Assembly: GCF_001039275.2 (NCBI RefSeq)
Contig: NZ_CP030117.1
Coordinates: 4,216,001-4,280,000 of the forward strand
Direction of reading: 5' to 3'
Origin: Brevibacillus brevis
GTDB lineage: Bacteria > Bacillota > Bacilli > Brevibacillales > Brevibacillaceae
Length of the DNA stretch: 64,000 bases
The translations under genes and the position numbers were made by a program. Below are positions 47,416 through 60,408 of this stretch, in pieces. The notes beneath the pieces are model-generated. The model had not been told where the DNA came from. It saw only the letters and a list, made by a program, of their open reading frames with translations, and made no database searches. Each line of letters opens with the position of its first letter. Position 1 is the first letter of the stretch.

Positions 47416-47646
47416 CTATGCTTTTCGATAAAAAAAGCAGTCAAATCCACCGATTGAGATGTCAGAATAGCACCTGATCATTTCTGTTAGTATCACCTTT
47501 GCCTCCAGTCTGGATAATGGTGCGCCCATGTATAGGTGGCAGCCCTTTCCAAATGATAACTGCTTATTGCTATTAGGTCGCTGGATATCGAATTGATCTT
47601 CCTGTGCAAAGGTATTTTCATCACGATTGGCATAACCGAGCCATAC
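47416..47646 (-). pseudogene. Cytochrome P450 C-terminal fragment (PksS-like)
   Basis: A 77-codon frame without a start reads VWLGYANRDENTF, then FDIQRPNSNKQLSFGKGCH and MGAPLSRLEAKVILTEMI. This is the C-terminal third of a bacterial P450. The heme-ligand cysteine of FGxGxHxCxG is replaced by Tyr (FGKGCHLYMG), so even this part is dead. It overlaps the AT/PfaD fragment in another frame. P450s of this kind tailor bacillaene-type polyketides. It is degraded biosynthetic debris. Confidence 0.8.
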
Positions 47647-47839
47647 AAGCTAATGGCAAATAATCCGCCCCAAGCATGAAAGCGACCGCAGCAACTTCAG
47701 GAGTTCCAATGGAATGTACCTTTTCATCTAACCTAAGCATCCATTTGCGAAATACCGGATTCTGATCAAAAAGGTCTTTCCCCCTCTGATCGTACTGAGA
47801 CCCCTGTCCAGAAAACAGAAACACAACAGGCTTTTCCAT
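47621..47839 (-). pseudogene. Fused remnant of a trans-AT acyltransferase-enoylreductase
   Basis: The ATG at 47839 follows AAAGGGGGG. The first 42 residues are an acyltransferase N-terminus (VVFLFSGQGSQYDQRGKDLF, NPVFRKWMLRLDE). The text then jumps directly to IGTPEVAAVAFMLGADYL, a motif of PfaD-type enoylreductases, and soon hits a stop. A normal AT-PfaD protein of trans-AT polyketide clusters has about 750-1000 residues, so a large internal deletion joined both ends. Confidence 0.75.
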
Positions 47840-47886
47840 GTATGGTGCCCCCCTTTTATATATGAAAGGTTTTTATAAAGAAAACT

Positions 47887-47919
47887 CCCCACAGCCTGGT
47901 CATTTGACCGCTTGTGGGG
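47887..47919 (-). terminator. Terminator after the PPTase gene
   Basis: CCCCACA (47887-47893) pairs with TGTGGGG (47913-47919), with GGTCA/TGACC inside and a T4 run following on the minus strand. Confidence 0.7.
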
Positions 47920-47922
47920 AAT

Positions 47923-48768
47923 TCATAAGCGATTTGTCATGGGTGGTTCTATCTCCTGAAGTTCATCCTTTACTACAGCAACATTCCACTCAGTCTTTTT
48001 CGGGTAGGTGATCGAACACACATAGTCGCCAAGGATAAAAGATGCAGTACGGTATTGGGGAAAGTTATCAAAAAGACTATAAACAACCCCATCCTTTGCC
48101 ACCACTTGGCTTATTTCATAGATATGAAAAGAAGTTGTTAGGGCTGTCTTCAAAATTTTGGATAACGCTTCCTTGACTGTCCAGAAAAGAGTGAGAGTCG
48201 TTTCATAGGAATAAGGCAAGCATGAAAATAAATTGCCCTCTTTCACTGTCATTTGCGTCTCCAGAACTTTATTTCTATCAACGCTAATTCTCTCAACATC
48301 AATTCCCATCGGTAGCTCTTCCGAAAAAGCAATGGCTGCGGCAAGATCGTCACAGTGGGTGATACTCACTTGGACATTGGTTGTATTCGGTAGGTTCACG
48401 ACAGGGTGATGAAAAATGCCCTGTTCAATACATATTCGCTCTAAGCTGTCTTCTCCAGTCAAAACCGAAACGGCTCTTTTGGCGACATATCTCCCTGTCA
48501 GGTAGCTTTTTACTCTCCGCTCAAACTCCAGATGAAAATAGTACTCGAATTCTTTTGGATGCAGGAATTTTACCATTTTAAAAAAATCAGCGGGAGCAGA
48601 AAAGCAGCCCAAGCACAAACTTGCACGAAACTCTCTATCCGTGCCTTTTACAACGAATTCTTTCGTAGAGATCTGTGGAAATACATGCAATCCAATCTCC
48701 GCCTTCCGTTCTCCTACTATGCCAATGGGCAGAGCTTCCCCAGTTCGTGGGTCAATAAAAATACACAC
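47923..48768 (-). CDS. Sfp-type 4'-phosphopantetheinyl transferase, possible fused N-terminal debris
   Basis: A 281-residue frame. From about residue 51 it is a Sfp/Gsp-type PPTase, which loads phosphopantetheine onto carrier proteins of polyketide and peptide synthetases. Motifs are LGCFSAPADFFKMVKFLHPKE, FERRVKSYLTGRYVAKRAV, the ITHCDDLAAAIAFSEELPMGIDVERI block with the Mg-binding Asp, and LFWTVKEALSKILKT. The first 20 residues (VCIFIDPRTGEALPIGIVGE) look like a piece of an acyl-adenylate ligase read in frame. The true start may be TTG 48618. The enzyme part seems intact although the surrounding cluster is decayed. Confidence 0.75.
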   Translation of the reverse strand: MCIFIDPRTGEALPIGIVGERKAEIGLHVFPQISTKEFVVKGTDREFRASLCLGCFSAPADFFKMVKFLHPKEFEYYFHLEFERRVKSYLTGRYVAKRAVSVLTGEDSLERICIEQGIFHHPVVNLPNTTNVQVSITHCDDLAAAIAFSEELPMGIDVERISVDRNKVLETQMTVKEGNLFSCLPYSYETTLTLFWTVKEALSKILKTALTTSFHIYEISQVVAKDGVVYSLFDNFPQYRTASFILGDYVCSITYPKKTEWNVAVVKDELQEIEPPMTNRL

Positions 48769-49020
48769 TACTGTTTCTCCGTATGTCCTCCCTACATTCC
48801 TTTAACGTGCCGAAATATCGATTAAAATTCCCTAAGGGATTTTCCTTTCGATAAAAAGCTTATATAGCTAGCTCTTTAAATTTATGCAGAATGTTACGAC
48901 TACTGCATTTATTGCATAATACAAGAAAATTGGATATATTTAGTATAATAACACGTTTTTTGGAAATCATAAAGCACTCCAGACTTTCGAATCCACTTCA
49001 TAATGAAAGGATTGCTCACC

Positions 49021-49554
49021 TTGAAATGGTATGCCATCTTTGTAGATTCTGGTAAAGAAGAAGTCGTTCAAAAGTACCTCAAACTCTATTTTAATGAAGA
49101 GTCTTTAAAATCCCTTGTGCCGAAGAGATTGGTTCCTGAGAAAAAATCAGGCATTGTGTATAATGTCCTGAAGAATATTTTTCCTGGATATGTACTTATT
49201 AAAACTGAAATGACTAACGATACGTTCCATAAAATTAAAAAAATTCCTATAAGTTTTCGTTTGGTCAATAACCGTAGTTACTATTCGCAAGATGAGGGCG
49301 TTTATTATTCGAGCATTGACGAAAAAGAAATCATCCCGATACTCCAACTCATGGGCAACGGTGAGGTTGTCGATTATTCAAAAGTATATCTGGAAAATTC
49401 AAAGGTGATCGTAGAATCTGGTCCCCTAAAAGGACTGGAAGGCATTATCAAAAAAGTGGACAAGCACAAAAAGAGGGCTAAAATATTTCTATCCTTTATG
49501 GGAGTAGAGAAGACAATTGATGTGGGAATTGAAATCCTCTCAAAACCTTCGTAA
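49021..49554 (+). CDS. loaP: LoaP-type NusG paralogue (antitermination factor)
   Basis: A 177-residue NusG-like protein. The NGN domain opens with LKWYAIFVDSGKEEVVQKYL and has FPGYVLIKTEMTNDTFHKIKKIP. The KOW domain contains VIVESGPLKGLEGIIKKVDKHKKRAKI. LoaP proteins promote read-through of terminators in long polyketide operons such as difficidin and macrolactin. The TTG start at 49021 follows AAAGGA and gives the usual N-terminus; ATG 49003 would add six residues. A TATAAT -10 lies at 48944-48949. No long target operon follows. Confidence 0.88.
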   Translation: MKWYAIFVDSGKEEVVQKYLKLYFNEESLKSLVPKRLVPEKKSGIVYNVLKNIFPGYVLIKTEMTNDTFHKIKKIPISFRLVNNRSYYSQDEGVYYSSIDEKEIIPILQLMGNGEVVDYSKVYLENSKVIVESGPLKGLEGIIKKVDKHKKRAKIFLSFMGVEKTIDVGIEILSKPS

Positions 49555-49669
49555 ATGGGGAGCGTCGTGTACGCGCCCCCTTTTTATTTTCTTCATACAA
49601 GCACGCATTCCATCGTAAAATCATAGGCTCATGGTAAGTAACATTCGAATAGGAAAGGAATTTGTCTAC

Positions 49670-50500
49670 ATGGTTTTCTCGGACGAAGACAACATGTTTA
49701 CTAGTCAGGCTGCCATTTTCCTTGCGGCCATGAGCTATCAGACTTATCTATTATATTTTAATGAGGAGCTTATCTTACCCAAAGGCTTTCAACTCCGATA
49801 CACGATTCGAGCTTCAGCTGACGTAGAGAATCCAACTGAACATATCTATGGTTTTGTGGCAGAATCAAAAGATGAAATCATCATTGCCTTCAGAGGGTAC
49901 GCAGCCTATCCGGCAGACCTTTTGGCAGCCTATGACATCTTACAAATTCCCTATCCTTTTGTTACAGAGGCAGGGAAAACCTCACGTGGATTTACATGCC
50001 TGTATCAGTCAACACGAGATCGATTATTCAGAAAAATAAATCAGTTTTCCGCATCAAAAAAGCTGTTTATTACTGGCCACAACTACGGTGGCGCACTGGC
50101 TGTACTGGCAGCTTTAGATATTGCGGTAAACACGCAGTTTAGACACCCAATCGTTTATACCTATGGCAGTCCGCGTATTGGTGACCCCCACTTCGCTTCT
50201 CGCTTCAATAAAGTCGTTCCAAATAGCCTGCGCATTGTCAATGTTCACGACTCTTTCCCTACCTTCCCCGATCAAAAGTATCCGCCTCCTTTTACCCAGG
50301 AAGGCATCTACTATCAACATGTAAAAAACAAGTTTCCTCTCTCGTTTCAACTGAATAATACGCCTCGCAACGATAGTATCGCCTGCTATTTCCAAAGCCT
50401 CACTCAGTTTGACCCTGATTACGCCCAAACGCTCTGTGTGGAAAATCCGGGGTTTTGTCCCGATACCGATACGTGTATTCCGTTTCAAGGCAAATGCTAG
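49670..50500 (+). CDS. Lipase-family (class 3) protein with Ser-to-Asn active-site change
   Basis: A 276-residue alpha/beta-hydrolase of the fungal-type lipase (class 3) family, paralogous to the next gene over its whole length. The oxyanion segment IIAFRGY is present, but the nucleophile elbow is GHNYGG (Asn138) instead of GHSLGG. It should therefore lack normal serine-hydrolase activity. Later landmarks YTYGSPRIGDP, VNVHDSFPTFP and the cysteine-rich tail FCPDTDTCIPF are kept. ATG 49670 aligns with the paralogue start; the frame is open to 49631. It may be a binding or regulatory pseudoenzyme. Confidence 0.85.
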   Translation: MVFSDEDNMFTSQAAIFLAAMSYQTYLLYFNEELILPKGFQLRYTIRASADVENPTEHIYGFVAESKDEIIIAFRGYAAYPADLLAAYDILQIPYPFVTEAGKTSRGFTCLYQSTRDRLFRKINQFSASKKLFITGHNYGGALAVLAALDIAVNTQFRHPIVYTYGSPRIGDPHFASRFNKVVPNSLRIVNVHDSFPTFPDQKYPPPFTQEGIYYQHVKNKFPLSFQLNNTPRNDSIACYFQSLTQFDPDYAQTLCVENPGFCPDTDTCIPFQGKC

Positions 50501-50538
50501 CTTTTACAGCCTTGAAACCGAGAAAGGGAGACACATGA

Positions 50539-51357
50539 ATGATCGATCGTATTTATAACAGTGAAGATGCGATTTTACTTGCGGCCATGGTCCATCAGGC
50601 CTATCAGCTTTTTGAAACAGATTCACTTGTCTTGCCACAAGGGTATCGTCAACGCTCGGCGATTCGAGCATTGGCTGGTGTTGAGACGCCGGAGCCCGAG
50701 GTATTTGGTTTTGTAGCCGAGTCACCCGACAGTATCGTTGTTGCTTTTCGGGGAACACGCACGTTTAACGACAATGAGTCAGATCAAGATTTGTATCAAG
50801 TCCCCTATCGATTTGTCAGAAAGGCAGGAAAAACCCACCGTGGGTTTACTTGCATTTACCAATCCGCGCGAGATGAATTGATTCGGGAGCTGAGCAAGCT
50901 CCCTAGATCGAAAAGACTATTTGTTGCGGGGCACAGTTTAGGGGGAGGCTTGGCCGCACTTGCCGGTTTGGATATTGCCGTGAATACGAAGTTTCCGCGA
51001 CCTTTTGTGTATACGTATGGGAGCCCACGTGTCGGAGATCCTGTCTTTGCTTCGCGGTTTAATGAGACTGTAAAGAACAGTGTTCGGATCGTGAATGTTC
51101 ATGATATTATTCCGACGTTGCCGTCCAAAGCGTATCCCCCTCCGTTTACGAAGAAAGGATTGTACTACCAGCATGTCGATCGGAAGCATTTGTTGGATTT
51201 TCAGTTGAATAGCTTAGCTGTAAGGAATCATGAAATTGTTTGTTATTTTACGTTTCTGGCGCAGGAGGAGCCTGGGTTTACGGAGAGGTTGTGTACGGAG
51301 AATGAGGGGTTTTGTCCGGATACAGGGATGTGTGTGCCGTTTTTAGGGGGATGTTGA
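50539..51357 (+). CDS. Lipase-family (class 3) protein
   Basis: A 272-residue lipase-like alpha/beta-hydrolase. It has the intact elbow VAGHSLGGGLA (Ser133), the oxyanion segment VVAFRGT, YTYGSPRVGDP, and VNVHDIIPTLP with the likely catalytic Asp. It has the same short cysteine-rich C-terminus (GFCPDTGMCVPF) as its upstream copy 38 bases away. No signal peptide is seen. The two genes are a tandem duplication in one transcript. The start follows GGGAGA. Confidence 0.9.
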   Translation: MIDRIYNSEDAILLAAMVHQAYQLFETDSLVLPQGYRQRSAIRALAGVETPEPEVFGFVAESPDSIVVAFRGTRTFNDNESDQDLYQVPYRFVRKAGKTHRGFTCIYQSARDELIRELSKLPRSKRLFVAGHSLGGGLAALAGLDIAVNTKFPRPFVYTYGSPRVGDPVFASRFNETVKNSVRIVNVHDIIPTLPSKAYPPPFTKKGLYYQHVDRKHLLDFQLNSLAVRNHEIVCYFTFLAQEEPGFTERLCTENEGFCPDTGMCVPFLGGC

Positions 51358-52058: not shown

Positions 52059-52077
52059 CCCCTTGTCTACCAAGGGG
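52059..52077 (-). terminator. Terminator of the agr-like operon
   Basis: CCCCTTG pairs with CAAGGGG, followed by a long T-rich run on the minus strand, downstream of agrD. Confidence 0.75.
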
Positions 52078-52204: not shown

Positions 52205-52339
52205 TTATTTCTTTAATTCTTCTGGAATTTCAGGTTTCCCCACGAAACCAAAGGATGCGGTAGATACCGCCAGTACCGCAACAAATGAAGCAATTGCTGA
52301 AACATGCTTCGCTACGAACATCATCGCTTTATTTTTCAT
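52205..52339 (-). CDS. agrD: AgrD-like cyclic lactone autoinducer precursor, cysteine-free
   Basis: A 44-residue AgrD-type propeptide. An amphipathic, positively charged N-terminus (MKNKAMMFVAKHV) precedes a small hydrophobic part and then STASFGFVG followed by the acidic recognition tail KPEIPEELKK. Staphylococcal AgrD uses a cysteine to form a thiolactone ring; there is no cysteine here. The serine in SFGFV is the obvious ring former, which would give a five-residue lactone like that of S. intermedius. The start follows AAAGGAGG and overlaps the agrB stop by 11 bases. Confidence 0.85.
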   Translation of the reverse strand: MKNKAMMFVAKHVSAIASFVAVLAVSTASFGFVGKPEIPEELKK

Positions 52340-52865
52340 CTTTTCCACCTCCTTTCAGTGGAATGAGCGTCAGTGCTTGCACAAAAAAGGTCTTAACCAG
52401 TGTCTCGCTTTCTATGAAAAATAATAAACTGACGATGATAATGGAGATGATCTTGAGGAGCAAAGTCTGATTCTGTTTGAATAGTCGTGATTGCATTTCC
52501 ATTTCTTGCGGTGCAAAAAGTGCTACTAGGACTAATGTGATGATAATAATCGGGGTGACAAAATCATTAGGAAGGGTAATGAGAGGGATGAATACAGCTC
52601 CCGCTATACTTGTCATGGTGCAGTAGACGGACGATGAGTAGTGAAATCCTCCTGAAAATTGGCGTAGTACTAAAAATCCGGCCAATGTGAGTAATGTTCC
52701 TTGAAACGTCCCTATCATAAGTGAAATGGTAAGGCTAATTGTAATGATGAGCAGCATGTTGATGATAAGGATCAACCCAAACTTCATGGTGGGGACTGAC
52801 TTCGTTTCATGTGGATTGATCGACTTTAGTTGTATGGCTATTCTTTCAGCAAGAGTTTCAATCAT
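52329..52865 (-). CDS. agrB: AgrB-like autoinducer-processing membrane protease
   Basis: A 178-residue membrane protein with about five or six helices. The AgrB signature RQFSGGFHYSSSVYC holds the catalytic His75 and Cys82. AgrB cleaves the AgrD tail and catalyses ring closure and export. The start at 52865 is used because ATG 52874 abuts the AAGGG site. It overlaps the upstream membrane gene by 8 bases and agrD by 11, so the three are translationally coupled. Confidence 0.92.
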   Translation of the reverse strand: MIETLAERIAIQLKSINPHETKSVPTMKFGLILIINMLLIITISLTISLMIGTFQGTLLTLAGFLVLRQFSGGFHYSSSVYCTMTSIAGAVFIPLITLPNDFVTPIIIITLVLVALFAPQEMEMQSRLFKQNQTLLLKIISIIIVSLLFFIESETLVKTFFVQALTLIPLKGGGKDEK

Positions 52866-53514
52866 ATTCCCCATCCCTTTTTATAGCCAGCCATGCCAGT
52901 ATCGTGATTCCGATTGCCATCCCAAAGAAGATCCAGACTAAGGAAGCAATTCCATATGTGCTTGCTAATTTAAACAAGACCGTTATCAATACTCCTGTTA
53001 CAATGATCAGTGACAAAATCACCATGTTGATTCTATGGTAAATAAAGAAAGGCGCTCCATCTCTGACAAATGTAAATTGCAGTCTACATTTCCGAAGTCC
53101 ATAGCATAATGCAAAGGTAAGGAATGCGGAGATTGTCTGGAATATGAACCCTGTGTTGATGGTTCGATCCTCTAACGATTCAATCGTCTCTAAGGTTCCT
53201 ATGACGGTCAGGAAGAACACTTCCACCATCTGAATCCCCAAGTATATTCCAGCTGTTATAATAGTCATTAAGGCAGCATGTCCCCAATTAACGTTCCATA
53301 CCAGGATTAATGCCCCAAAGATGATGACGACTTGAGCTATGGTTGCATAGTCTCCATATGGCGTAAATTGTCGCAGCCCAAACGAGAAAAGCATTAATAC
53401 CAGACTCACAAAGAGAATCCGGTTGATATGCACCAAAAAGCCAAACCTAAATAGTGTAGTCATAAGAGCAAATATTGCGAGGTATTCCAACGTTGAAAAT
53501 AGGACAAACAGCAT
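52858..53514 (-). CDS. Seven-helix AgrC-sensor-like membrane protein without kinase
   Basis: A 218-residue integral membrane protein with about seven hydrophobic segments (near residues 4-25, 30-47, 57-76, 83-110, 124-143, 162-182 and 188-208). It has the size and layout of the N-terminal peptide-sensing part of AgrC kinases. The protein stops with KRDGEYD, where AgrC would continue into the helical linker and histidine-kinase domains. No kinase or response regulator is encoded nearby. It is the first gene of the operon ahead of agrB and agrD. It might be a stand-alone receptor, an immunity/antiporter-like factor or a truncated sensor. Confidence 0.7.
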   Translation of the reverse strand: MLFVLFSTLEYLAIFALMTTLFRFGFLVHINRILFVSLVLMLFSFGLRQFTPYGDYATIAQVVIIFGALILVWNVNWGHAALMTIITAGIYLGIQMVEVFFLTVIGTLETIESLEDRTINTGFIFQTISAFLTFALCYGLRKCRLQFTFVRDGAPFFIYHRINMVILSLIIVTGVLITVLFKLASTYGIASLVWIFFGMAIGITILAWLAIKRDGEYD

Positions 53515-53603
53515 GTAACTTTTTCACCTCAATTACTTATTGGGGGTTATATTCTACTAGAAACGACAGATCCCTTCTTTTATTTACCAGATTTGACAAT
53601 TTA

Positions 53604-53760
53604 GATACCATAGACATTCCGAAAATACGTTTCCAAGACCCACAACATTATCATGCAGCCCTTCTTCTTATTCAAGGTGTCAATCCTTAAGTAGTAAGTG
53701 AAAGATTAGGACATCCAACCATCCGATTGGCTCAATACTCTTACTCCTTCCAAATTCGTG
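53604..53760 (+). pseudogene. Tyrosine recombinase (integrase) C-terminal fragment
   Basis: The plus strand reads IRFQDPQHYHAALLLIQGVNP, a TAA, then VVSERLGHPTIRLAQYSYSF. This is the C-terminal catalytic part of a phage-type integrase (RHTHAS-like, then LGH). It has no start, an internal stop and a mutated HxxR box. Confidence 0.75.
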
Positions 53761-53941: not shown

Positions 53942-54193
53942 CTAAGACTCGAACGCTGTTCTTTCCGGAAAATTTCCGCCTTCTCTAATTAGACAAACTG
54001 CCAACCGCTGCGCCGCTCTGTCAAAATAAAACTTAGATGGAATACTTAGGTCGGGTATTCCTTCTAGCTCGGAAAATTTTCTGGTTAATTTGTTTAATTC
54101 AATTTTACCCATTATATTTTCATTTGGTCCAAATTTGTATACAACAGTTTCATCATTTTCAAATTCTTTTAGTAACAAAACATATGAAGCCAA
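53942..54193 (-). CDS. Probable immunity protein of the DUF4280 toxin
   Basis: An 83-residue small soluble protein that I do not recognise. It has a strand-helix pattern (SYVLLLKEFENDETVVYKFGPNE, then LNKLTRKFSELEG). The TTG start at 54193 follows GGAGGAG and lies 2 bases after the toxin stop. This tight coupling directly behind a polymorphic toxin gene is the usual place for its immunity partner, and the call rests on position alone. Confidence 0.6.
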   Translation of the reverse strand: MASYVLLLKEFENDETVVYKFGPNENIMGKIELNKLTRKFSELEGIPDLSIPSKFYFDRAAQRLAVCLIREGGNFPERTAFES

Positions 54194-54195
54194 TA

Positions 54196-55464
54196 TTACT
54201 CCTCCTCTGGTGGATACCATGGACGCCCAGAATCTACCGTTCTGTCGTGAGCAGTTCTGTAATCCGTCTTAAATATTCCTTCAAATTTAGATTCAAAAAT
54301 TTCATGATTCAATAAGTCGATGTCATTCGGTTTGTATGTCCCTTTTTGAAGCCTATCCCAAGCTTGAGCAATTTCATAATCAGCTTCAAAACGTCCTACA
54401 CCATGCTCCTTGATGTGTTCTTTGAAGAATACATGCTCTTTTATCCTTTGTACCCTATGTTCTACCATCCCAGTATTTTTTGCAATAGCCTGAACATCAA
54501 CATTTGACGTTCTAAAGGATTCGTACATTTCATCTGCTTTGTCTAAACGTCTTAGATATTCATCGACAGAGAGTTCTCTACCACCTGTCTGAACTTTCGC
54601 CGGCACCTTCTTTCCTTTTCTTGCAGCATCCACTATTTGTTTTATGTTTTTACTTCTTCCGAGCGTAAGTGCACTCAAGGCAAGTCCACCGATTGCAATT
54701 CCATCCGCGAGATTGATTTTATCATCCCGCAACGTATCCAAGTCTTCTTGCATTGGCTCTATATAGCCTTCCCTCACAAACACTCCAACACCCTTAGGTA
54801 AATCCTCTGCCGCCTTCTGTAAACCTTTTGGCAAATCATTTGCAGCTTTCTCCAAAGCCCCTGGCAGCTCACTTGCCGCTTTTTGCATCGCAGCAGGAAC
54901 GTCTCCCAGCATCGAGATTCCTTTGACGAAATTATCCCACATGCTTGGCTTTTCCTGCGGCTTTTCGCAAGCTGGTCCTTGTCCAACCCCAGCAGCAGAC
55001 GGCCCGCTGTCTGTTGACGACTGATTTCCTATCGTCACACCACCCAAATCCTGCCCGTCATCTTCAATCTTGATCTGCCCACAATAGAAACACATATTCG
55101 TTGATTTATTTAGCAATGCCGGATGGCCGCCGACCATTTTGTCCGCTTTCCCATCTATCCATGGCATTGTGGTCAAAGGGGTGCACGGCATTGGTCTAAG
55201 TACACCATTGTTGGCTGCCGTGGCAGAAGCGACTGTGGGATTTTGTAAGCTGTTGCACTTTCCAAAGGGCATGATATTTACGTTGGGAACAAAATCCATG
55301 ATGTTCATTTGCGGCTTTCCTTTTACAAAAACACCATGGCTGAACGGCATTTTCAACCGACTCTGTTTACTTCCGCTGCTGCAAGATAAAATGGCTCCCA
55401 CAACCACGTAGCTGTTGCGTTCAGCGCTTGACTGCTGGATATTGATACCTTCAATATTGGGCAT
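54196..55464 (-). CDS. Polymorphic toxin with N-terminal DUF4280 (PAAR-like) domain
   Basis: A 422-residue protein. Residues 15-125 are a DUF4280-type PAAR-like domain (VVVGAILSCSSGS, MPFSHGVFVKGKPQMNIMD, CNSLQNP, then MPCTPL and a C-rich end), which in Gram-positives tops secreted or injected effectors. A Ser/Pro linker and a helical repeat follow. The repeat carries several copies of ELPGALEKAANDLPKGLQKA-like units. The C-terminus (about residues 320-422) holds EHGVGRFEADYEIAQAWDRLQKG and LLNHEIFESK, resembling a phage- and toxin-associated domain with a His-Glu pair. The start follows AGGAGGAG. The toxic activity is unknown. Confidence 0.8.
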   Translation of the reverse strand: MPNIEGINIQQSSAERNSYVVVGAILSCSSGSKQSRLKMPFSHGVFVKGKPQMNIMDFVPNVNIMPFGKCNSLQNPTVASATAANNGVLRPMPCTPLTTMPWIDGKADKMVGGHPALLNKSTNMCFYCGQIKIEDDGQDLGGVTIGNQSSTDSGPSAAGVGQGPACEKPQEKPSMWDNFVKGISMLGDVPAAMQKAASELPGALEKAANDLPKGLQKAAEDLPKGVGVFVREGYIEPMQEDLDTLRDDKINLADGIAIGGLALSALTLGRSKNIKQIVDAARKGKKVPAKVQTGGRELSVDEYLRRLDKADEMYESFRTSNVDVQAIAKNTGMVEHRVQRIKEHVFFKEHIKEHGVGRFEADYEIAQAWDRLQKGTYKPNDIDLLNHEIFESKFEGIFKTDYRTAHDRTVDSGRPWYPPEEE

Positions 55465-55775
55465 ACAGTCTCCTCCTCTCTGTAAAGGTTTCCATACAGA
55501 TGGAAGATGCTCTTGTTGATCGATACGCCTGATATCCAATCTATATATAAAAAGGAAAAAATGCCCACGTTTTGATGTATCGGATATAGAAAGGTCACGA
55601 GCAATAGGTATAAAGTTACAAATACACCTCTGTGTTCGAAAAACCGCCTTATTCAGTGCGGGATCTGCCCCGCTCGACATACCTGCAACATGAATTACAA
55701 TAAACGAATATTGCCATGCGAGGACGGACCTCCATCTAGAGGAGATGGTACTAATACAAACTAGCAAGTAAACTC
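55465..55775. other. Intergenic region upstream of the toxin gene
   Basis: About 310 bases without a convincing gene. The minus-strand frame continuing upstream from the toxin is open to 55767 but has no binding site and no protein-like pattern, and the toxin has a good start of its own. Confidence 0.4.
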
Positions 55776-59125: not shown

Positions 59126-59990
59126 TTACGCGGCGATCGCTTTCCGATACTCAATCGGGGAACGGTCGCCTAGTTTTTTTGAAAACGACTCTGATTATAA
59201 AAGGCAATGTATTTTTCAACAGCTTCATTTAATTCCTCAAGTGATTTTGCCGAGCATCGATACATCAATTCTATTTTTAGATGAGAAAAGAATGACTCGA
59301 TACAGGCATTGTCTAAGCAATTTCCCCGTCTCGAATGACTTCCTAGTACTCCGTACTCATCCAGACGTTTATTATAGTGTCTGGAAGTGTATTGAAAACC
59401 TTGGTCCGAATGTAGGACGGAACCGTTCATTTCTCTCCCCTTACAAAGACTATCTACGGTGCTCATCACGAGTGACAAATCGTTTTGGGAAGAGACATGC
59501 CAAGCAACGATTTCGTTATTAAACAGATCCTGCACAGCAGATAGATAAAAAAATCGTTCTCCGACTCGTAGATAGGTGATGTCGGTTACCAGCTTCTTTA
59601 GAGGTGCTTCTGCTTTAAACTGTCTTTCCAGACGATCCGGGTTTACAACTGATGCCCGTCTGCCGAAGAATCGCCTTTTTTTACGAATTACTGAGCGGAT
59701 GCCTAATTCCTTCATCAATCGATAGACACGTTTGTGATTGATTTGTAATCCTTCTTTGGGAAGAGCAACTGTCATTCGTAGTAACCATAATAAGGATGCA
59801 AGCGGTGGATACTTAGGATATGTTCTTTTAGGTTGACTTCCTTTTCGCTACGTCGAACAGATGCCTCTCTGGACTTTCTCCATTTGTAATATCCCGCACG
59901 GGATACTTTTGCAAAACTGAGCAGCCATGATAATCGATATTTGGTTTGCATTTGTTCAATAATTGAGAACCTTACTTTCTTCGAAGTCAC
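59126..59990 (-). pseudogene. IS3-family transposase OrfB, two frameshifts
   Basis: The DDE integrase domain is recognisable. It has an HTH_21-like YRLSWLLSFAKVSRAGYYKW part, then VTDITYLRVGERFFYLSAV (first Asp), VLHSDQGFQY (second Asp) and NACIESFFSHLK (Glu). Near 59773 the frame breaks after HPYYGYYE (one base lost before MTVAL), and near 59177 a 7-A run breaks QKKLGDRSPIEYRKAIAA. The product cannot be made in one piece. Confidence 0.85.
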
Positions 59991-60295
59991 TCCCCGTTTA
60001 GATTTGGATATCGCTTTTTTAGATATTCATTCTCCGCTTTTATGTAGGCTAACTCTTCCTCAACGCTTGTGAATTTGGCTTTTGGACGCCCTTTTCGCCA
60101 TGCCTGATTTGATCGAGAAGCTGTTAGTGCCACCCCATTACGAACCTTATTAACCCAGTCCAACACCTGTCTTTTTTCTGGAATGCCTAATCTTCTGGCG
60201 ACTTCTCTAGAAGATACTCCGGACTCGTAAAGACGTACGGCTTCCATTTTTTCCTCTTCCGTATAAACTCTAAATGTTTGTCCTTTTTTAGCCAT
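59987..60295 (-). CDS. IS3-family transposase OrfA
   Basis: A 102-residue OrfA with an N-terminal helix-turn-helix (YTEEEKMEAVRLYESGVSSREVARRLGIP) and a C-terminal leucine-rich coiled coil (EEELAYIKAENEYLKKRY). An A6G slippery heptamer (60020-60014) in the YLKKR codons should drive -1 frameshifting into OrfB. The start follows GAGGGG. Confidence 0.88.
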   Translation of the reverse strand: MAKKGQTFRVYTEEEKMEAVRLYESGVSSREVARRLGIPEKRQVLDWVNKVRNGVALTASRSNQAWRKGRPKAKFTSVEEELAYIKAENEYLKKRYPNLNGE

Positions 60296-60408
60296 AAAAA
60301 AATCCCCTCTGGTCAATTGTGTCTTACCCAATTGTAACAGTGGGGTTTTAAACACAGTCAACCATGAGGGGATATTACCATTTCTCAAGGGTTTGAACGT
60401 TCATATTA

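Follow-up and report, generated by a model that had tools for sequence, protein, structure and literature searches.

An AgrB-AgrD unit with a kinase-less AgrC-type sensor in Brevibacillus brevis, and the LytTR gene that accompanies it in relatives

The three-gene unit and its predicted autoinducer

The window, that is, the whole stretch of 64,000 nucleotides of Brevibacillus brevis DNA that was analysed, belongs to a genome assembled as one 6.44-Mb contig with a single AgrB. It contains an Agr unit of three overlapping genes, all on the minus strand, coding for a membrane sensor, AgrB and AgrD. An earlier reading made from the letters of the window (the sequence-only reading) had described these genes, and the coordinates, strand, lengths and overlaps were confirmed. 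The features of the unit are the following, in window coordinates:

52858..53514, minus strand: kinase-less AgrC-type sensor, 218 aa, with 6-7 membrane segments and a short C-terminal tail (open reading frame, and profile match to canonical AgrC sensors and to phrog_15604)
52329..52874, minus strand: AgrB, a membrane endopeptidase that processes the peptide; 181 aa, with an intact His/Cys pair (PF04647)
52205..52339, minus strand: AgrD signal-peptide precursor, 44 aa from an ATG, or 47 aa from a GTG at 52348 (TIGR04223; conserved in relatives)
52241..52255, minus strand: predicted autoinducer ring Ser-Phe-Gly-Phe-Val, followed by the tail GKPEIPEEL (alignment of AgrD C-termini; putative cyclisation)
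52059..52077, minus strand: hairpin resembling a terminator, some 130 nt beyond AgrD and likely the end of the operon
53515..53640, minus strand: upstream region with the presumed promoter and ribosome-binding site (conserved blocks in a nine-genome alignment)

AgrB matched PF04647 (E 8.9e-18; 64.7 bits, cut-off 23) and AgrD matched TIGR04223 (E 2.9e-11; 43.2 bits, cut-off 19), the latter being, as previously read, a 44-residue protein without cysteine. The catalytic pair of AgrB, H78 and C85 in the 181-residue reading, is the His75/Cys82 pair formerly reported as intact if translation starts at Met4, and both residues were invariant in the nine aligned AgrB proteins. The first gene had been described as coding for a seven-helix protein: six hydrophobic segments were clear, and the seventh appeared at a lower threshold only. 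Four canonical Brevibacillus AgrC sensors gave 6-7 segments by the same method. The sensor showed no match to any Pfam or NCBIfam family, its 31 aligned relatives gave scattered weak matches to those families only (best E 0.00098; DUF2244 in 3 of 32), and its profile found no relative in PDB at E up to 5. Sigma-70-like sites between 51900 and 53900 were not above shuffles (6 versus 5.4), and no Rfam match was obtained at the gathering threshold in 45-60 kb of the window. The hairpin stretch after AgrD was largely kept in B. formosus, B. porteri and B. fortis.

Several other features were observed in the surroundings. Positions 47621-49554 contain a LoaP antiterminator (NF033641), a phosphopantetheinyl-transferase-like open reading frame (by eye) and an acyltransferase-like fragment of 72 aa; since the open frame at this place is longer in B. 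formosus and B. porteri, a polyketide cluster may be broken in the window strain. Two tandem lipase-like genes with Cys-rich C-termini (49631-51357), the second being a Lipase_3, lie beside the Agr unit across the window clade. A DUF4280 protein with a C-terminal extension is followed by a 92-aa open reading frame (53942-55767), possibly as an effector and immunity pair, and IS3-like transposase frames (by eye) adjoin two tRNA genes at 59170-60388.

The serine of SFGFV had been proposed to close the peptide ring. In an alignment of AgrD sequences on their P-x-x-P tail (64 rows, including repeats of the same species), ring position 1 was Ser in 34 rows, or 38 once four rows misread by one residue had been set right by eye; 10 rows had Cys and 16 had neither residue. 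In seven of the eight Cohnella loci, the position of the Brevibacillus Ser is taken by Cys, and this argues for Ser as the ring-forming residue in the window peptide. The window peptide is most likely a five-residue serine lactone with SFGFV as its ring. A natural and functional Ser-lactone autoinducing peptide (AIP) of a staphylococcal agr system is described for S. intermedius in a passage of PMC10482373, and cyclic lactone autoinducer clusters are mentioned for most Brevibacillus isolates of one study (PMC9867215). AgrD peptides with neither Ser nor Cys at position 1 are encoded at L058-L063, L072-L076, L090, L147, L151, L157 and L161, and at the phage loci L212, L214 and L215. Lys occupied position 2 in all 16 rows without Ser or Cys and in one Cys row, and the AgrD of phages Abouo, Davies and Emery resemble these Lys-type rows. 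A lysine-closed or a linear peptide is possible for Lys-type AgrD.

Homology of the sensor to AgrC and conservation of the unit

Likeness of the first protein to AgrC sensors, which the sequence-only reading had suggested checking by structure prediction, was found by comparison of sequence profiles. An alignment of 67 sensor relatives matched ten canonical Brevibacillaceae AgrC sensors with a probability of 93.8% (E 1.8e-7, over 185 columns), and other sensor alignments gave 87.3% and 86.7%. Nine decoys (two reversed alignments, five column-shuffled ones, and AgrB forward and reversed) gave 0.1-0.8%. The sensor as a relative of AgrB was rejected (0.2% profile probability).

A nine-row sensor profile found matches in 44 of 398 genomes of the class, mostly in stand-alone frames of about 220 residues, weak partial matches with E 0.002-0.009 being set aside. 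Forty loci were chosen among the profile hits. Six of them code for proteins of 406-421 aa whose N-terminus matches the sensor profile; their C-terminal part matched the canonical AgrC kinase with a profile probability of 97.1%, and the whole proteins reached 99.2%. These proteins gave no Pfam kinase match, and the conserved His, N-box and G-box residues were missing by eye, as in a decayed kinase. At the level of the phylum, a 32-row profile found matches in 30 of 398 genomes. Twenty-six loci outside the near relatives were examined: 16 with a split AgrC (a sensor frame and a separate GHKL frame), six with fused kinases of about 450 aa and four without kinase match in the flank. The split loci (in the range L167-L189, L196 and L197) have a sensor frame of about 160 aa and a GHKL frame of about 285 aa, mostly beside AgrB; AgrB was present in the flank of 19 of the 26 loci, and AgrD-like and AgrA-like genes were found in the two split loci read further. 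In the tree, all 38 stand-alone sensors formed one group (96/98), with the decayed-kinase proteins adjacent under a midpoint root; L141, whose sensor is broken over two frames, was left out of the tree and of alignment A6. Because of the profile match, of the relatives in class and phylum and of the tree, the 218-residue protein is assigned by homology as an AgrC sensing domain without kinase. In the sequence-only reading, the kinship of the first protein to AgrC sensors and its lack of a kinase were upheld.

The sensor was present in 14 of 60 genomes of relatives, its own included, and the set sensor-AgrB-AgrD was kept in all 16 loci of those 14 genomes; at one of them (L015), a single-sequence search missed AgrD (E 0.96), which was identified by eye and with a later profile built with this AgrD among its rows. 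The closest named relatives found were Brevibacillus formosus and B. porteri (sensor 96% identical). Nine near genomes carry all three genes in intact form. Over their 36 pairs, AgrD, the most conserved gene, had a ratio of mean dN to mean dS of 0.070, AgrB one of 0.154 and the sensor one of 0.168. Of 26 genomes in the genus, 18 gave canonical AgrC sensors. Those without them are the window genome and seven others, and all eight carry the window-type unit; a ninth carrier (G004) had one weaker canonical AgrC match (E 2.1e-22, 454-aa frame). Neither of the two findings named in the sequence-only reading as refuting it was obtained: close relatives carry the same three genes and no full AgrC-AgrA pair at this place, and the first protein is similar to AgrC sensors by sequence profile. 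Local truncation of a full AgrC was rejected, and since the loci are conserved, dN/dS is low and the hairpin stretch is kept, the window unit is maintained, under purifying selection.

A LytTR gene beside the unit in relatives and in phages

The absence of an AgrC-type kinase or LytTR regulator within several kilobases of the unit, already remarked from the sequence, was borne out: no AgrC-type kinase, response-regulator or stand-alone LytTR profile matched in the 19-kb stretch round the unit, and no AgrA (receiver plus LytTR) was found there. HATPase_c_5 had 27 matches in the window genome, the nearest one starting at a distance of about 94 kb. That a canonical AgrC is encoded at another place in this genome was considered and rejected, since no canonical AgrC sensor was found in it; the canonical AgrC match of the best GHKL candidate (L018, 456 aa) was confined to the kinase half. 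The four LytTR matches of the genome all lie outside the window, three of the genes being beside LytS-type kinases and one coding for a one-component-like regulator (by eye). No stand-alone LytTR of the family described below was found in this genome, the best match (E 8.4e-7) being part of a 245-aa one-component-like protein.

Among the 40 chosen loci, AgrB was matched in 39 (the exception being L089). Of the 34 with a stand-alone sensor, 26 by sequence clustering, or 24 by profile, code for a protein of 110-136 aa directly after AgrB/AgrD, which none of the six loci with a decayed kinase does. The protein consists of a receiver-less LytTR domain: of six members tested, five passed the PF04397 cut-off, and one scored 19.4 versus 22.6 bits. 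Searching with AgrB then yielded 30 loci from named records (Brevibacillus, Paenibacillus, Cohnella and Caldalkalibacillus), with several loci for some species. The sensor was found in all 30 (broken over two frames in L141), AgrD in 29 and the stand-alone LytTR in 23. Two loci departed from the order sensor-AgrB-AgrD: in L160 AgrB came first, and in L162 no AgrD could be found. In 19 of the 23 loci with LytTR, this gene overlapped AgrD or began within 21 nt after it. For comparison, AgrB loci of canonical type from the same family, 25 in number, were examined with 1.5-kb flanks; 24 contained an AgrC-type kinase, and none contained the kinase-less sensor or a stand-alone LytTR. Distances between sensors and between LytTR proteins were correlated (Mantel r 0.917, n 22, 0 of 2000 permutations; L141 and the second copies of L142 and L151 excluded), as expected for a cassette moving as a unit.

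The seven named loci without LytTR were three of the window clade and four of Paenibacillus. Two LytTR carriers, B. reuszeri and B. gelatini, share a group with the window clade in the tree (92/88, a moderate support), and because of this grouping the LytTR gene was probably lost in the window lineage rather than primarily absent. A relic of this gene was sought after AgrD in the window clade, and none was found. In three loci (L077, L198 and L200) a full response regulator replaces the stand-alone LytTR, and in L076 and in the B. gelatini locus (L081, L143 and L199 being the same locus) one is present besides it. An AgrC-type kinase match within the stretch of about 10 kb was obtained in 4 of the 30 named loci, namely L138 and L148 (Paenibacillus flagellatus), L143 (B. 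gelatini) and L156 (Cohnella endophytica, three matches), and in none of the other 26. Among the 40 chosen loci, L051, L053, L070 and L081 (the B. gelatini locus) had a kinase match, besides the decayed kinase of L057 itself. In B. gelatini, a response regulator and a 277-aa GHKL protein follow the LytTR gene, all in a row (L143:6163-7904), and the phosphoacceptor His of the GHKL protein is apparently missing (by eye). B. reuszeri has a 207-aa counterpart of this protein, seemingly decayed (by eye).

Direct repeats of the type of LytTR Regulatory Systems were sought in 27 upstream regions of LytTR-bearing loci, where the mean best score was 6.48 versus 6.38 in shuffles and one region of 27 reached the 0.05 level. 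No excess over shuffles was seen in 15 other upstream regions either; some gene starts are uncertain.

The same genes occur in phages. Of 14 viral contigs found by AgrB, 11 carry the kinase-less sensor, accompanied by a stand-alone LytTR in eight, a response regulator in two and a longer LytTR protein in one; this set overlaps with the others and is not independent, L199 being, by length and content, the contig of B. gelatini and L206 that of phage Abouo. Isolated phages with sensor and AgrB were Abouo, Davies, Emery, Harrison and Paisley (8 records). The set of sensor, AgrB, AgrD and LytTR was established gene by gene in Abouo, Davies, Emery and Harrison. The AgrD profile matched in the first three of these, and the AgrD of Harrison was recognised by eye only. 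By Pfam, the LytTR of Abouo and Harrison passed and those of Davies and Emery stayed below the cut-off (16.9 and 19.1 versus 22.6 bits), these two matching the cassette's own LytTR profile (4e-33 and 2.8e-35), which includes relatives of the B. laterosporus group. The cassette of Abouo and Davies has integrase genes on one side and regulator/repressor genes on the other (PHROGs for the Abouo neighbours), and that of Emery and Harrison has a recombinase or integrase as well as regulator genes nearby. A tandem pair of kinase-less sensor genes precedes AgrB in Davies and Emery (L214 and L215), and also in L072 and L142.

Residues 2-217 of the window sensor matched the phage family phrog_15604 with E 6.6e-9. 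PHROGs labels the LytTR family as 'peptidase'. With the window sensor, tblastn retrieved no phage or plasmid record, and the same was true for one Paenibacillus sensor, the AgrB of whose locus had no viral contig match either; the kinship of the window sensor to phages rests on profiles and intermediate sequences. Among the tested neighbours of the window unit no phage structural gene was found, two of them being without any PHROGs match.

A possible signalling route and its relation to known systems

We consider it moderately probable that the unit represents a compact variant of Agr quorum sensing, formed by AgrB, the AgrD peptide and the AgrC sensing domain alone, with direct LytTR control in most relatives and a lost LytTR in the window lineage. 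AgrB would cut and cyclise AgrD to give a short peptide, most likely a serine lactone, which would bind to the kinase-less membrane sensor. In LytTR-bearing relatives, the sensor would hold, release or otherwise switch the LytTR protein upon peptide binding, without phosphotransfer, a switching that can be likened to that by the membrane proteins of LytTR Regulatory Systems (as outlined in a section of PMC6193735). Such a direct route from sensor to LytTR is likely because the operon of most relatives also holds the receiver-less LytTR, and this pairing suggests signalling without phosphorylation in them. In the window lineage, after the probable loss of LytTR, the sensor may act through an unlinked partner.

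Phosphorylation could still have a part, since some relatives have response regulators and 4 of the 30 named loci an AgrC-type kinase match. The sensor and a histidine kinase encoded elsewhere, to which the sequence-only reading had suggested that it might lend its signal, would then form a split AgrC, an arrangement seen in 16 of the 26 phylum loci. The row of sensor, AgrB, AgrD, LytTR, response regulator and 277-aa GHKL protein in B. gelatini, the kinase matches near the unit in Paenibacillus flagellatus (L138 and L148) and Cohnella endophytica (L156), and the 27 HATPase_c_5 matches of the window genome are in line with such a pairing. However, the kinase match is missing at 26 of the 30 named loci and round the window unit, L018 is AgrC-like in its kinase half only, the B. 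gelatini GHKL protein apparently has no phosphoacceptor His (by eye), and the usual partner of the sensor is a LytTR protein without receiver; we regard a split AgrC as unlikely here.

That no output gene was found in the operon of the window clade, apparently closed by a terminator behind AgrD, also agrees with a sensor that is no signalling receptor and serves as an immunity, export or peptide-sink partner, the peptide acting on other cells, for example as antagonist or toxin. The filing of the phage sensor as a moron membrane protein in PHROGs, a label only, goes in the same direction. An immunity or export role had been among the earlier suggestions and gained no positive support; with its homology to AgrC sensors, and with a DNA-binding protein encoded alongside in 23 of the 30 named loci, the sensor looks more like a regulatory receptor, and a non-signalling role is distinctly improbable. 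The lack of the LytTR gene could further mean that the window unit is a decaying remnant of a four-gene cassette without present function. With three genes intact in nine genomes, dN/dS of 0.07-0.17 and AgrD as the most conserved gene, this is very improbable.

Extending the compact Agr variant beyond this locus, one may envisage, as a reading that is less likely than not, a class of phosphorylation-free peptide quorum sensing in which an AgrC-derived sensor directly controls a stand-alone LytTR. A phage cassette of this class could set lysogeny by peptide level, one branch would apparently use Lys in place of Ser or Cys, and the Brevibacillus unit would be a chromosomal three-gene descendant keeping signal and receptor after loss of the regulator. 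If true, an Agr receptor can work without its kinase, and canonical AgrC, split AgrC, decayed-kinase AgrC, sensor with LytTR and sensor alone would make a graded series from a two-component system to a one-step switch. It would also provide an AgrBD counterpart to the peptide communication of temperate phages, testable in Abouo, Davies, Emery and Harrison. No description of the sensor-AgrB-AgrD-LytTR cassette was found in the open-licence literature of PubMed Central.

The Agr system of Staphylococcus consists of AgrBDCA. The window unit resembles it, as presented in a passage of PMC10482373, in the His/Cys pair of AgrB, in the hydrophobic leader, ring and P-x-x-P tail of AgrD and in the AgrC-type membrane sensor, and differs in that the locus has no kinase domain and no AgrA, the regulator of most relatives being a LytTR without receiver. 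The AIP of S. intermedius likewise carries a ring Ser instead of Cys; it is reported there as a functional lactone (PMC10482373), whereas the lactone of the window is predicted and its receptor has no kinase. LytTR Regulatory Systems (HdrRM and BrsRM, as treated in a section of PMC6193735) are similar to the cassettes of the relatives in combining a receiver-less LytTR with a kinase-less membrane protein, and of these two the window unit has the membrane protein only. According to that section, however, their membrane proteins are inhibitors without an AgrBD partner, their regulator gene comes first, with LRS-like exceptions in Bacteroides, whereas LytTR comes last in the cassettes described here, and 9-bp direct repeats about 12 bp apart lie upstream of their operon promoters (PMC6193735). 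Such repeats were not found here.

Kinase-less AgrC-like proteins of phages Davies, Emery and Abouo were noted in 2014 (PMC3901668). These phages share with the window the sensor family, AgrB, AgrD and the gene order, Davies and Emery having two tandem sensors; the relevant passage of PMC3901668 makes no mention of the following LytTR gene, and the window copy differs in being chromosomal and without LytTR. The agr1 locus of C. difficile, as described in the same paper, also comes without the agrC kinase and agrA. It consists of agrB and agrD alone (PMC3901668), to which the operon of the window adds a kinase-less sensor.
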